Source of the DNA: Acidimicrobiaceae bacterium | GTDB taxonomy: Bacteria > Actinomycetota > Acidimicrobiia > Acidimicrobiales > RAAP-2 | Reading direction: 5' to 3' | Length of the DNA: 39,629 nucleotides | NCBI GenBank assembly: GCA_947372925.1 | Contig: CANBVQ010000009.1 | Span: forward strand, 1 to 39,629 | In this document: positions 1,456 through 5,999 of the stretch, in pieces | Layout of the letters: each line of letters opens with the position of its first letter | Position numbering within the stretch: the first letter of the stretch is position 1 | The notes under the pieces: model-generated | The model's database searches: none | Seen by the model: only the letters and a program-made list of their open reading frames with translations | Told to the model about the DNA's origin: nothing | Translations under genes and position numbers: made by a program

Positions 1456-2367
1456 CTAGATCCGGTGGAGGCCACTCGGCAGGCTGGTATCGCTGGCCAC
1501 AATCTCCTTGATGAGTTGATGCACCGCGAGCGTCGGTGTTGACGGCAGACCGTAGGGCGGGAGCGTCAGAGCCACTCGACGGGGCGGAAGGTCAGATATT
1601 CGAATCCCCCGAAAGCCCAGTTTGAGGTGCGCGGGAATCGCGGTTGCCGGCAAGACGGCGTAGCCCTCACCGTCGAAGCAGAGGGAAGCCAAGGTTCGAA
1701 TACCGTCCATCTCGATACGAGGAGTCAATGTGACGTGGGCCAGTTCACAGGCCTCATCAATCTCATTGCGAAGAGGTGTGCCCGAGAGGGGGAGTAGGAG
1801 GTCGAGTGACGTGAGGTCACGCAGTCTCACCTGGTCTCCTTCGATGGCCCGCTTACCTTTGGTCGGGGTGACGAGGACTAGGTCTTCATCGAAGAGCTCG
1901 GCGTAGCGAAAGGAGTCGGAGAGAAGAGGCATCGAAAGAATGGCTACGTTCAGTTCGCCGGCGGCCAGCCGCGGCTCGAGAGCCGAGTTAGTCCCCTCAA
2001 CGATCCGCAGGTAAATGTTGGGGTAGTGCTCCCGCTGCGCCTGAAGAAGATGGGGGATAAGCCACCGGCCCGTCGTACCGATCATGCCAATCGAAACGTC
2101 ACCCTGAACGGTTTCGGACATGGACTTAACATCGGTGCCAATTGACTCTTCTTCCACCAGAATTCGACGAGCCCGCTCGAGGACTGAACGTCCTTCGGGG
2201 GTCGGCTCCATGGTTTCTCGATCGATAAGGGAGACGCCGAGTTCGGCCTCCAGATTCTTTACGCGAGTCGAGATATTGCTTTGGGCGGTAGCGAGCGCCT
2301 TGCCAGCTTTGGAAAATGAGCCGGCGTCCACCACTGCCACGAGTGCTTCTAATTGTCTAAAGTCCAT
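1456..2367 (-). CDS. LysR family transcriptional regulator
   Basis: A 303-residue LysR-type regulator. Residues 1-60 form the winged HTH (MDFRQLEALVAVVDAGSFSK, then AQSNISTRVKNLEAELG). The rest is a periplasmic-binding-like effector domain, with VSIGMIGTTGRWLIPHLL at about 90-110. The ATG at 2367 is preferred to an upstream TTG because it starts the conserved MDFRQLE and has a -10-like TAGATT 7 nt upstream. It is divergent from the 6C RNA and murT, and LysR regulators often act on a divergent neighbour, but no operator was established. Effector unknown. Confidence 0.92.
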   Translation of the reverse strand: MDFRQLEALVAVVDAGSFSKAGKALATAQSNISTRVKNLEAELGVSLIDRETMEPTPEGRSVLERARRILVEEESIGTDVKSMSETVQGDVSIGMIGTTGRWLIPHLLQAQREHYPNIYLRIVEGTNSALEPRLAAGELNVAILSMPLLSDSFRYAELFDEDLVLVTPTKGKRAIEGDQVRLRDLTSLDLLLPLSGTPLRNEIDEACELAHVTLTPRIEMDGIRTLASLCFDGEGYAVLPATAIPAHLKLGFRGIRISDLPPRRVALTLPPYGLPSTPTLAVHQLIKEIVASDTSLPSGLHRI

Positions 2368-2374
2368 TATCAAT

Positions 2375-2380
2375 AATCTA
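2375..2380 (-). promoter_or_regulatory. Predicted -10 of leaderless LysR gene
   Basis: TAGATT on the minus strand, 7 nt before ATG at 2367. The same hexamer precedes the genes starting at 7847 (minus) and 8454 (plus). An imperfectly documented dyad TATC-N4-GATA lies just upstream at 2390-2401 and could be an autoregulatory site, but it does not fit the usual T-N11-A box. Confidence 0.45.
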
Positions 2381-2440
2381 TATGGAAACTATCAAGCGAT
2401 ACGGCTTGCTGATAAGGCTGAAAATGGGCAAACTGTACCC

Positions 2441-2516
2441 AGTACTTCGGGAGAACCCCCCTCTTCCGAAATCTCAGCAATGGGACCGGTCTACCCCCCA
2501 GACCGGTCCCTTTGCT
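2441..2516 (+). ncRNA. 6C RNA (two hairpins with C-rich loops)
   Basis: Two consecutive hairpins carry identical seven-base loops ACCCCCC. Hairpin 1 has arms 2446-2454 and 2462-2470 (nine pairs, one G-U), loop 2455-2461. Hairpin 2 has arms 2482-2492 and 2500-2510 (eleven perfect pairs), loop 2493-2499. Its stem extends to 2476/2516 across one T-T mismatch. Two stem-loops each exposing at least six cytosines define the actinobacterial 6C RNA family, and the second hairpin usually doubles as terminator. A possible promoter is TTGCTG (2406-2411), 17 nt, CAAACT (2429-2434), which would start the RNA near 2441. The 5' end is therefore an estimate. Family members are small regulatory RNAs thought to pair with G-rich sites such as Shine-Dalgarno regions; targets here are unknown. 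Confidence 0.85.
2476..2516 (+). terminator. 3' hairpin/terminator of the 6C RNA
   Basis: A strong GC-rich stem (11 perfect pairs, extendable to 17 positions with one mismatch) is followed by a weak T run (TTTGCT). It lies in a divergent LysR/murT interval where no protein gene ends, which supports its role in ending the small RNA. Confidence 0.65.
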
Positions 2517-2531
2517 AATTCCTGGGCTTGT

Positions 2532-2537
2532 TAGCGT
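2532..2537 (+). promoter_or_regulatory. Predicted -10 of murT (leaderless)
   Basis: TAGCGT ends 7 nt before the ATG at 2545, 16 nt downstream of the 6C RNA hairpin. No convincing Shine-Dalgarno precedes the ATG. This suggests murT has its own promoter independent of the small RNA. Confidence 0.4.
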
Positions 2538-2544
2538 GATACCA

Positions 2545-3756
2545 ATGGCAACCCGTCTCCCACTACGAAGTTCTCTGGCTCTCGCCGGACTGCGAATCGT
2601 CAATCGCACCAGCCGTGCATTGGGAGTGGGGCAAGGAACAGTGGCCGGTGGTCGTGTGGCTCTTCGGATTGATCCCCAGCTCGTGCGACGCATGAGCGCC
2701 CGACGGCGCATCGTGTTGGTCACCGGAACCAACGGTAAGACCACCACAACAGCCCTAGTCGTAGCGGCACTTGGCGGTGCCACCACGAACGCCACTGGGA
2801 GCAATATGTCGGCCGGTATCGTTGCCGCACTGGCGACCGACCAAAGCCCGTTGACAGTGCTGGAAGTTGATGAGGCGTACTTGGCGACAGTCGCCGAAGC
2901 AACTCAGCCAGAAGTAGTGGTGCTACTTAATCTCAGTCGCGATCAGCTCGACCGCGCTGCTGAGGTCCGAGTGCTGGCTGAGAAGTGGCGCACCACGTTG
3001 CATAACTCATCAGCCACCATCGTGGCGAACTGTGCCGACCCGCTCGTCGTCTACGCCGCGGTCGCGCAGATGAACTCGAAGGTTGTTTGGTGCGACGTGG
3101 GGTCGAGTTGGACCCTGGATGCCCGCTCTTGCCCGCAGTGCACTGAGCCGTTACATCCCGAGGGGGCATGGCGGTGCGAGTGTGGCTTTGCAAAACCAAT
3201 TCCTGATTTTGTGCTGGGCGAAACATTGAGCGGTGCAGGCAGTTCGGTGGAATTGGATATCTCTCTACCGGGGGCGTTCAATCGCTCAAATGCCGCATTG
3301 GCTGTCGTTGCCGCATCCCTCCTCGGGACTCCACTCCAACTTGCCGCTGAGCGAGTTGGCACTATTCGCGAGGTGGCCGGTCGCTTCACGGTGCGCCAAC
3401 GCGACGGTCAGACGTTTCGCCTCATGCTGGCTAAAAACCCCGCTGGCGTCTCGGCCCTGATTGGTTTAGTGGCCGGAGGAAGCGATGTCGTCGTCTCGAT
3501 TAATGACTTGATTGCTGACGGGACTGATCCCTCGTGGCTCTACGATGCACCCTTCGACCAACTACGTGGGAGCACGGTCTGGTGTACCGGTGAGCGAGCG
3601 CTCGACTTGGCGACCCGCCTCGAGTACGACGATGTCACGGCCCGGGTGGTAACAGTGGACGAAGTCGCGGGACAAATTGCGACATCGAAGCCGGTTGATG
3701 TCATTGCCAACTACACCGCCTTTGCGGCATGGCTGGAAACGACGTCACCATGCTGA
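2545..3756 (+). CDS. murT: MurT, lipid II isoglutaminyl synthase ligase subunit
   Basis: A 403-residue Mur-ligase-like protein. With GatD it amidates the D-glutamate of the lipid II stem peptide at the cytoplasmic membrane, using ammonia from glutamine. The P-loop VTGTNGKTTTTALV lies at about residues 58-71. A Mur central domain follows, with LNLSRDQLDR. The MurT-specific Cys ribbon is CPQC...CEC within SCPQCTEPLHPEGAWRCECG (about 194-213). The DUF1727-type C-terminal domain contains INDLIADGTDPSWLYD. ATG 2545 is chosen because an upstream in-frame TTG (2512) lies inside the 6C RNA terminator stem. The gene overlaps gatD by 7 nt, the normal pairing. Confidence 0.95.
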   Translation: MATRLPLRSSLALAGLRIVNRTSRALGVGQGTVAGGRVALRIDPQLVRRMSARRRIVLVTGTNGKTTTTALVVAALGGATTNATGSNMSAGIVAALATDQSPLTVLEVDEAYLATVAEATQPEVVVLLNLSRDQLDRAAEVRVLAEKWRTTLHNSSATIVANCADPLVVYAAVAQMNSKVVWCDVGSSWTLDARSCPQCTEPLHPEGAWRCECGFAKPIPDFVLGETLSGAGSSVELDISLPGAFNRSNAALAVVAASLLGTPLQLAAERVGTIREVAGRFTVRQRDGQTFRLMLAKNPAGVSALIGLVAGGSDVVVSINDLIADGTDPSWLYDAPFDQLRGSTVWCTGERALDLATRLEYDDVTARVVTVDEVAGQIATSKPVDVIANYTAFAAWLETTSPC

Positions 3757-4472
3757 AGATTGCCGTTCTCTACCCCGAACTCCTTGGAACGTACGGCGAT
3801 GGTGGCAACGCCCTGGTTCTCGCATCGCGAGCGCGGCGTCGCGGCGTCGAGGTTGAAGTCGTGCAAGTCGCGCTTGACGAGGAAATTCCCGATGCCCAAA
3901 TCTTGTTGCTAGGCGGGGGAGAAGATGGCCCCCAGCGTCAAGCCACCTACGGCCTCGCTAAGGATGACACTCTGGCGAAGAGGGTTAACGATGGTGCGGT
4001 GCTGCTCGCGGTCTGCGCCGGTTTCCAACTAATCGGCACCTCGTATGAAGTTGAAGGTGGCCTTCACGTAGAGGGACTCGGACTCGTGGAGTCGGTGACC
4101 ACTCGAGGCGCCAAGCGTCGAGTGGGTGACCTCTTGACGCGCGTTGGCAACCGTTGGATGGTGGGCTTTGAGAACCACGGTGGAGAGACAGAGCTTGGTT
4201 CGAACGAAGTTCCCTTGGGAGTAGTCGAGGCCGGTGCCGGCAATGGTCGGTTTGCCGGCGGTGCTCGTTACGTCGACGGCGTGCGACGTGGCAACATCTT
4301 CGGAACCTACGCCCACGGCCCCGTTCTGGCGCAGAACCCCTGGTTCGCTGATGAACTGTTGACTCATGCCCTCGGACGGGAGTTAGAGCCACTCTCCTCT
4401 GTTGCCGACGATCTCCATCGCTCCCGCGTAAGGGAAATCGGGGACTTCCACGACGACGTCGTCGACTACTAG
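3750..4472 (+). CDS. gatD: GatD, lipid II isoglutaminyl synthase glutaminase subunit
   Basis: A 240-residue class I glutamine amidotransferase that supplies ammonia to MurT. The nucleophile Cys is in LLAVCAGFQLIG (about residue 87), and the catalytic His is in FGTYAHGPVLAQNPWFADEL. LLGGGEDGPQR is the family oxyanion-region motif. The ATG at 3750 overlaps the murT stop and has GGAAA about 10 nt upstream. An ATG 21 nt earlier is in frame but would add an unconserved stretch before MLKIAVLYPE. Translational coupling to murT is likely. The stop shares bases with the convergent acyltransferase stop (CTAG at 4469-4472). Confidence 0.95.
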   Translation: MLKIAVLYPELLGTYGDGGNALVLASRARRRGVEVEVVQVALDEEIPDAQILLLGGGEDGPQRQATYGLAKDDTLAKRVNDGAVLLAVCAGFQLIGTSYEVEGGLHVEGLGLVESVTTRGAKRRVGDLLTRVGNRWMVGFENHGGETELGSNEVPLGVVEAGAGNGRFAGGARYVDGVRRGNIFGTYAHGPVLAQNPWFADELLTHALGRELEPLSSVADDLHRSRVREIGDFHDDVVDY

Positions 4473-5200
4473 GAGCGCAAGTGGTCGCCCCAGGTGGGGT
4501 CGCCCGTCGTTTCTCGGGCAAGATCAATAACGGCGTCTTGAATCCGCTGACCGAAGCGCCGGATGTTTTCACCCTCTTCAATTGAGAGGGGTGGTCCGAA
4601 GGCGACAGTGACTGGCGACCGCCACTTTTTGGGCATTTCGAGATACATCGGAGCCTTGGCGTAACTCGAGATCCACTCTCCGGCACCCACCATGAAAGTG
4701 GGCACTACCACGGCGTCGCTGCGCTCCGCCAGGTAGGCCGCCCCGCCCTTGAACTCCAACATCGGTCCGGTGGGGGTTCGCCCGCCTTCGGGGTAGATCA
4801 AAAGGTCCCAGCCCTTCTTCAAAATCTCAATTGCCTGCGCGGCACTCTGTCGGTTGACTTTGTGGCGTTCGATTGGAATCGCGTTTACGAGGAGCACAGT
4901 GATTCGTGCAGTGGAGAGTTTTGTGAAGAATGTGTCGGAAGCTGCTGCCACTACCGTCCGCCGCCTTCGGGCGCGGTTGAGGGCCGCCAAGGCGATAATG
5001 GTGTCGAGATGGCTGGTGTGGTTGGCCGTGTAGATCGTTGTTGTGCCGAGGGGTGGGAGATTCTCTCGGCCACGTATGTCCATGGTGGTGAGGCGACGTG
5101 TGAGCGGCGTGGCCAAGGCGGTCAGTACTAGGTCTCTAAGAGCGGTGGCGGGAAAACGGCGTGACCACGCGGTGGGAAAATTAAGTCCCAGTTCGGTCAC
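4469..5200 (-). CDS. 1-acyl-sn-glycerol-3-phosphate acyltransferase (PlsC-like)
   Basis: A 243-residue membrane-associated acyltransferase. The HX4D motif is seen in TANHTSHLDTI (about residues 62-72), and the second block is YPEGGRTPTG, which binds the phosphate of lysophosphatidate-like acceptors. It probably makes phosphatidic acid for phospholipid synthesis, although the family also includes acyltransferases for other lipids. The start GTG at 5200 lies 1 nt after the stop of the upstream membrane-protein gene. A longer reading frame begins inside that gene and is rejected as the extra residues have no family character. Likely cotranscribed with the upstream gene. Confidence 0.88.
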   Translation of the reverse strand: MTELGLNFPTAWSRRFPATALRDLVLTALATPLTRRLTTMDIRGRENLPPLGTTTIYTANHTSHLDTIIALAALNRARRRRTVVAAASDTFFTKLSTARITVLLVNAIPIERHKVNRQSAAQAIEILKKGWDLLIYPEGGRTPTGPMLEFKGGAAYLAERSDAVVVPTFMVGAGEWISSYAKAPMYLEMPKKWRSPVTVAFGPPLSIEEGENIRRFGQRIQDAVIDLARETTGDPTWGDHLRS

Positions 5201-5201
5201 G

Positions 5202-5837
5202 TTAGCGACGCCGTCCTGACTGCTTTGGGGTGTAACGCTTGGAGGGCGCTGGCTTCGGTCTGGCCGCTGTGGCTGAAGTATCGCCGTCACTCTTCTTACC
5301 GCGGGAGTAGCCGATGCCCTTCTTCCTGTTCGCGGCCCGTTCTTGGGCGCGCAGACGGGACTGCTGATTCGAGCCAATGAAGGTTGGGTCGCCGTACTTT
5401 TGAAGACGGAAAGCACGAATACCGAGCCAGACACCGAGCAAGAGGAAGGGTAGGCCGACATTGCTGAGGGCGAGACCCATCATGAAGGCGGCCACGATGA
5501 TGCCGACTCGCTTTTTACGCCAGGCGAAGAAAATGATGATGAGCGCACCGGCGAGAACCATGAAGAACTGGCCCATGTAGTCCTGGAACACCAGTGGGTA
5601 CTTGTGCTGGCACACCTTCTTTACGAGGTCGTAACCGGCAGGACAGACGCCGTTTTGCGGATCGGTCTTGGTGTATCCGTACTGCTGTACAAAGAGGAAA
5701 ATCGCCGTCAACATCAAGCCAATTCCACCGATGCCAAAGGACCAACGACGCTCGAGGGGGTCAATTCCGAAGATCACCTCGCGTGAGGCCCCCTCGGTCA
5801 TTACTACGGGTTTCTTATTGTCTTTGTTGTCCGCCAC
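5202..5837 (-). CDS. Conserved membrane protein of unknown function
   Basis: A 211-residue protein not assigned to a family. Residues 1-33 are polar. Three hydrophobic segments follow: about 34-50 (GIGGIGLMLTAIFLFV), 89-104 (FFMVLAGALIIIFFA) and 110-141 (possibly one long or two short helices). Two cysteines lie between the first two segments (VCPAGYDLVKKVCQHKYP), probably outside and able to form a disulfide. The C-terminal 60 residues are very basic (RAQERAANRKKGIG, SKRYTPKQSGRRR), so a cytoplasmic tail that binds nucleic acid or phospholipid is possible. It leads a two-gene unit with the PlsC-like enzyme. Start GTG 5837. Confidence 0.75.
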   Translation of the reverse strand: MADNKDNKKPVVMTEGASREVIFGIDPLERRWSFGIGGIGLMLTAIFLFVQQYGYTKTDPQNGVCPAGYDLVKKVCQHKYPLVFQDYMGQFFMVLAGALIIIFFAWRKKRVGIIVAAFMMGLALSNVGLPFLLLGVWLGIRAFRLQKYGDPTFIGSNQQSRLRAQERAANRKKGIGYSRGKKSDGDTSATAARPKPAPSKRYTPKQSGRRR

Positions 5838-5925: not shown

Positions 5926-5999
5926 GGGCGCTTAGCTCAGCTGGTTAGAGCGCAGCCTTCACACGGCTGAGGCCGAGGGTTCGAGTCCCCCAGCGCCCA
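5926..5999 (+). tRNA. tRNA-Val (anticodon CAC)
   Basis: A full cloverleaf: acceptor GGGCGCT (5926-5932) pairs with AGCGCCC (5992-5998), and the discriminator is A5999. The anticodon stem is CAGCC/GGCTG with loop TTCACAC, giving anticodon CAC at 5960-5962, which reads GUG. The T loop carries GGTTCGAGTCC. CCA is not encoded and must be added after transcription. Confidence 0.97.

Follow-up and report, generated by a model that had tools for sequence, protein, structure and literature searches.

What is the two-hairpin element that lies between a LysR-type regulator gene and murT in an Acidimicrobiaceae bacterium, and how might it act? The window, meaning the whole 39,629-nucleotide stretch of DNA analysed here, comes from an organism of the Acidimicrobiia lineage, and the named relatives nearest to it are Acidimicrobiaceae and other actinobacterial MAGs; the host, like those of 6C RNA, belongs to the Actinomycetota. 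We find that the element is a genuine regulatory small RNA, a relative within Acidimicrobiia of the actinobacterial 6C RNA, and that what is new for 6C is this lineage and the regulatory setting. Our joint reading, to which we give a probability of roughly 0.9, is of an Acidimicrobiia 6C independently transcribed as an RNA of about 80 nt, which would be LysR-controlled and whose C loops would pair in trans with G-tracts. The features of the locus are collected in Table 1.

Table 1. Features of the LysR-murT region, in positions of the window.
Feature	Position	Strand	Evidence or remark
LysR-type transcriptional regulator	1456..2367	-	Pfam HTH_1, LysR_substrate; divergent from small RNA
Putative LysR operator region	2368..2414		Dyads in aligned intergenic regions (45 same-genus, 17 from other Acidimicrobiia)
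Predicted small-RNA promoter	2406..2434	+	-35 TTGCTG 2406-2411, 17-base spacer, -10 CAAACT 2429-2434
6C-type small RNA	2441..2520	+	Rfam RF01066, R1 and R2 matches
Hairpin 1	2446..2470	+	Fold; 9 pairs, loop ACCCCCC 2455-2461
Hairpin 2	2476..2516	+	Fold; 11 pairs and 5 lower pairs, loop ACCCCCC 2493-2499
Predicted leaderless murT -10 (TAGCGT)	2532..2537	+	7 bases before murT ATG at 2545
murT, lipid II isoglutaminyl synthase subunit	2545..3756	+	Pfam MurT_C, Mur_ligase_M
gatD	3729-4472		Pfam GATase_3; neighbour with murT, outside the RNA

The 101-nt region has an MFE of -46.8 kcal/mol (z = -7.3), and none of 200 dinucleotide shuffles folded as well. In this fold, hairpin 1 pairs 2446-2454 with 2462-2470, including one G-U, and hairpin 2 pairs 2482-2492 with 2500-2510 above a lower extension of 2476-2480 with 2512-2516. 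A preliminary description had reported the same C-rich loop twice, on stems of 9 and 11 pairs; sequence and fold place both loops exactly where it had put them, to the base, and the fold bears out both stems, the second continuing for five pairs below. Hairpins with a C6 loop and at least eight Watson-Crick pairs occurred at a mean of 0.0 per dinucleotide-shuffled window (60 shuffles), and the same strict scan of the window itself recovers hairpin 2 only, because of the G-U in hairpin 1. Two successive hairpins with at least six C per loop, a membership feature of RF01066, are present. Hairpin 2 is terminator-like and is followed in this genome by a weak U-tract, UUUGCUAAUUCC, which is stronger in most same-genus sequences and missing in several other Acidimicrobiia. 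The RNA is predicted to be about 80 nt long, with its 5' end taken from the promoter position and its 3' end just past hairpin 2.

Conservation was examined in related loci gathered via the murT protein, whose intergenic regions could be aligned between the starts of LysR and murT. Model R1, a covariance model of 15 same-genus intergenic regions, matches 2441-2521 in the window and detects the element in 89 of the 99 genomes of the same genus. An apparent absence from about half of the murT loci was rejected, as these are reverse-strand loci in which the element lies upstream of murT too. In alignment A4, which comprises 56 distinct sequences and, being fitted to the covariance model, is biased towards the structure, 92% of cells are paired, two-sided compensatory changes occur in 23 of 26 pairs, and the covariation score was reached by 0 of 500 shuffles. 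By helix, such changes affect every one of the 11 model pairs in helix 1 and 12 of the 15 pairs of hairpin 2, where 98.6% of cells are paired. An independently made MAFFT alignment (A2) has two-sided changes in 13 of 26 pairs. The stems are thus held by compensatory change and the loops by sequence, as expected of a 6C member. It had been proposed that selection acts on the loops, with their conservation in related genomes as the check: across dozens of relatives the stems vary and the C loops are kept, and in one genome (G009, locus L028) both stems have been replaced and both C loops retained, which directly supports the proposal in a genome where the covariance model finds no match.

A search with the 6C covariance model, suggested in the preliminary description, gave a significant match at 2441-2517 over all 75 model positions (E 1.7e-4 in 201 bases), scoring 41.3 bits against an Rfam gathering cut-off of 47 bits, which is a curation threshold and not a biological feature. 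Searched against the whole genome, RF01066 has this element as its top match (E 3e-4), the runner-up standing at E 1.6. Because the score lies under the cut-off, default annotation misses the element: a gathering-cut-off Rfam scan of the window gave no 6C match and reported a tRNA alone, so that Rfam too is silent on an element that a protein-only annotation had been expected to overlook. The ortholog in G056 scores 46.6, and most relatives score far lower. Almost no matches came from RF01066 over 150 family genomes, a search with strict filters and few scored candidates that does not show absence, or from an all-family Rfam search of 12 loci, where the very large search space likewise keeps the result from showing absence.

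The reverse search used a model built exclusively from 63 Acidimicrobiia sequences (R2), which matches 2441-2521 with E 1.3e-9 in the whole genome, the element's own sequence being among the 63. The canonical 6C set consisted of the 30 loci that RF01066 identified in 296 genomes from the phylum, and R2 re-finds 29 of them at identical coordinates (E 3e-6 to 0.02), with much of its signal coming from the C loops; the thirtieth, L119, is a second copy in G382 and reaches E 0.37 only. Between them, the RF01066 match and the reciprocal R2 search support the 6C identity proposed at the outset, and we consider the family assignment firm. A conserved actinobacterial small RNA is thereby extended to a class where Rfam reports none at cut-off, and the large, divergent Acidimicrobiia alignment could improve the 6C model.

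The element resembles 6C RNA (RF01066; B11 in mycobacteria, and present in Corynebacterium and Streptomyces) in more than its two hairpins with at least six C per loop: length and spacing are similar, the second hairpin is terminator-like, a sigma-70-type promoter lies upstream, an HAD-IB gene is nearby, and there is one main locus per genome. It differs in its diverged stems, its sub-cut-off score, a divergent LysR gene where canonical 6C has a divergent HAD-IB gene, and the downstream murT-gatD of this genus. An alternative is convergence, in which an RNA not homologous to 6C would have arrived at two C-rich loops as other sRNA families with such loops have, a reading we consider unlikely. 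Unrelated stems, a sub-threshold score and a different flanking regulator are in its favour, as is a weak match (22.7 bits) to the alphaproteobacterial ar14 (RF02344), which also has two hairpins with C-rich loops; ar14, however, has a gathering score of 58.8, CCUCC-type loops and a different lineage. Against convergence stand the reciprocal matches with exact coordinates and the same two-hairpin spacing, although R2 may partly reward C loops, and the HAD-IB neighbour common to both groups. Among the canonical 6C loci, 23 of 29 have an HAD-IB phosphatase gene in divergent orientation to 6C, in agreement with the location of B11 between Rv3660c and Rv3661 (PMC2764107), while in many Acidimicrobiales an HAD-IB gene lies directly downstream of the element, an orientation unlike that of the canonical loci. 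Neither HAD-IB nor this LysR turned up in a control set of 90 loci (3 kb each), which was same-genus only and gives no measure of chance in Streptomyces or Mycobacterium.

If the element is a 6C RNA, is it also free of the gene that follows it? Within the genus, murT stands directly downstream in the same direction, and the Rfam type of 6C is Cis-reg, both of which would suit an element that controls murT-gatD in cis, as a leader or an attenuator. Several observations point the other way. The predicted promoter of the RNA is conserved, with the consensus TTG...CATAcT in 45 same-genus sequences and TTGACA...CANAAT in 17 other Acidimicrobiia sequences, and the position of TTGCTG-N17-CAAACT predicts a transcription start near 2441. 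Between hairpin 2 and the murT ATG lies a conserved leaderless -10, TTAGCGT being found in 15 of 15 aligned same-genus intergenic regions. The next gene downstream also varies: it may be murT, HAD-IB/PlsC or PlsC, with an HAD-IB/PlsC fusion gene between the element and murT in many other Acidimicrobiales, and at L012 and L085 the murT start is 300 bases further from the element. Moreover, mycobacterial B11 exists as a free RNA, 93 nt long and not co-transcribed with Rv3660c in M. tuberculosis (PMC2764107). From its own conserved promoter, the leaderless murT promoter and the varying downstream gene, we conclude that the element is not a murT leader, and we regard that alternative as quite improbable. 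For murT and gatD themselves, the best NCBIfam matches are MurT and GatD, both below cut-off.

Least credible of all is that hairpin 2 is merely a transcription terminator and hairpin 1 fortuitous, since, despite the strong stem of hairpin 2, the U-tract that follows it in most same-genus sequences and its resemblance to itself read from the other strand, the LysR gene runs away and sends no upstream transcription towards it, hairpin 1 also covaries and keeps its C loop where terminators require no particular loop, a conserved promoter stands just upstream of hairpin 1, and the U-tract is missing in several relatives.

The neighbour that stays constant is LysR. Placing the element between LysR and murT, the preliminary description was right about the lasting divergent neighbour and overstressed murT, as the downstream gene varies. 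In Acidimicrobiia the element almost invariably comes with a divergent LysR gene: one lies within 400 bases in 85 of 89 elements, at a median gap of 77, and is lacking in the other four (L132, L135, L140 and L143). The LysR gene product matches no NCBIfam equivalog at cut-off, the OxyR equivalog included. Its likely start is the ATG at 2367-2365, with TAGATT at 2380-2375, 7 bases before, as a leaderless -10. Between LysR and the RNA we find a conserved ATC-N9-GAT dyad, degenerate in this window (from 2369), and a second pair, TATC...GATA (2390-2393 and 2411-2414), that touches the small-RNA -35; we infer that the two form a LysR-type operator. With a divergent LysR gene and conserved operator-like dyads both in place, LysR control of the RNA is likely, judging from position and conserved sequence. 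In OxyR-OxyS and similar pairs, a small RNA gene is divergent from a LysR-type regulator with a putative operator between them; the LysR/element pair has a like arrangement, but is not homologous. The LysR protein gives 6C a candidate regulator of a kind lacking in mycobacteria, where 6C/B11 is induced by undefined factors according to one review (PMC8628891). Apart from these loci, L177 (G658) and L178 (G579) each carry two R2 matches 1.7-2.3 kb apart on one contig, without a LysR neighbour, which suggests tandem 6C copies in one family.

On our reading of the element as a LysR-linked 6C RNA, the neighbouring regulator would act on the RNA's own sigma-70-type promoter, the C loops may pair in trans with target mRNAs that have a G-tract at the ribosome-binding site, and such pairing would lower translation of the targets, by analogy with what experiments have shown for mycobacterial 6C/B11. 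In M. abscessus, repression by B11 works via either of its C loops and acts on a 5' UTR with six Gs (PMC10470900), and in M. marinum its C-rich loop pairs with G-tracts beside ribosome-binding sites; the latter study also found computed B11 targets to be inaccurate (PMC12395582). A search for GGGGGG-ATG in G000 gave 61 matches vs 34 for the reversed pattern, a mildly raised number, and most matches are not gene starts.

The same scan in this genome and two relatives drew attention to a whiB gene: both G000 and G109 carry CUGGGGGGUU at the gene start, and G662 has a similar string. Within a 72-base stretch spanning the whiB start, G6 or longer occurs in 26 of 50 same-genus genomes and G5 or longer in 42 of 50 (random-window background 2.3% and 6.7%, respectively); the 50 loci are related and not independent, and whiB was chosen after G-tracts had been seen in three, so the tract is a lead and not proof. 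A whiB paralog has an ordinary GGAGG-type site, with G6 or longer in 1 of 20 and G5 or longer in 4 of 20. In G000 the whiB G-tract would form 9-pair duplexes of about -20 kcal/mol with each loop. It is missing in some genomes (L244, L255), and its overlap with the ribosome-binding site means that ribosome binding by itself could account for its retention. From these sequence data, whiB is the best target candidate found for the RNA, and a specific one for Acidimicrobiia 6C. A relay in which LysR with its ligand switches 6C, and 6C in turn represses the WhiB regulator via its G-tract leader, might then operate in Acidimicrobiia; we put this forward tentatively and think it rather doubtful. In the literature searched, no LysR-6C-WhiB relay of this kind is reported for 6C elsewhere.

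Other genes with G-tracts were also noted. A nitrogen regulatory protein P-II gene (L231, G000:C56) has CGTCCGGGGGGACTATG at its start and is another possible 6C target, and in G000 (L220) and G662 (L207) GGGGGG immediately precedes the ATG of a secreted-looking protein starting with MLGTK. Elsewhere in the window, a PlsC-like open reading frame on the minus strand (4469-5461) has a long N-terminal stretch whose composition is odd, and its true start probably lies further in. The tRNA gene, the sole Rfam match at gathering cut-off in the window, lies at 5926-5999 on the plus strand.
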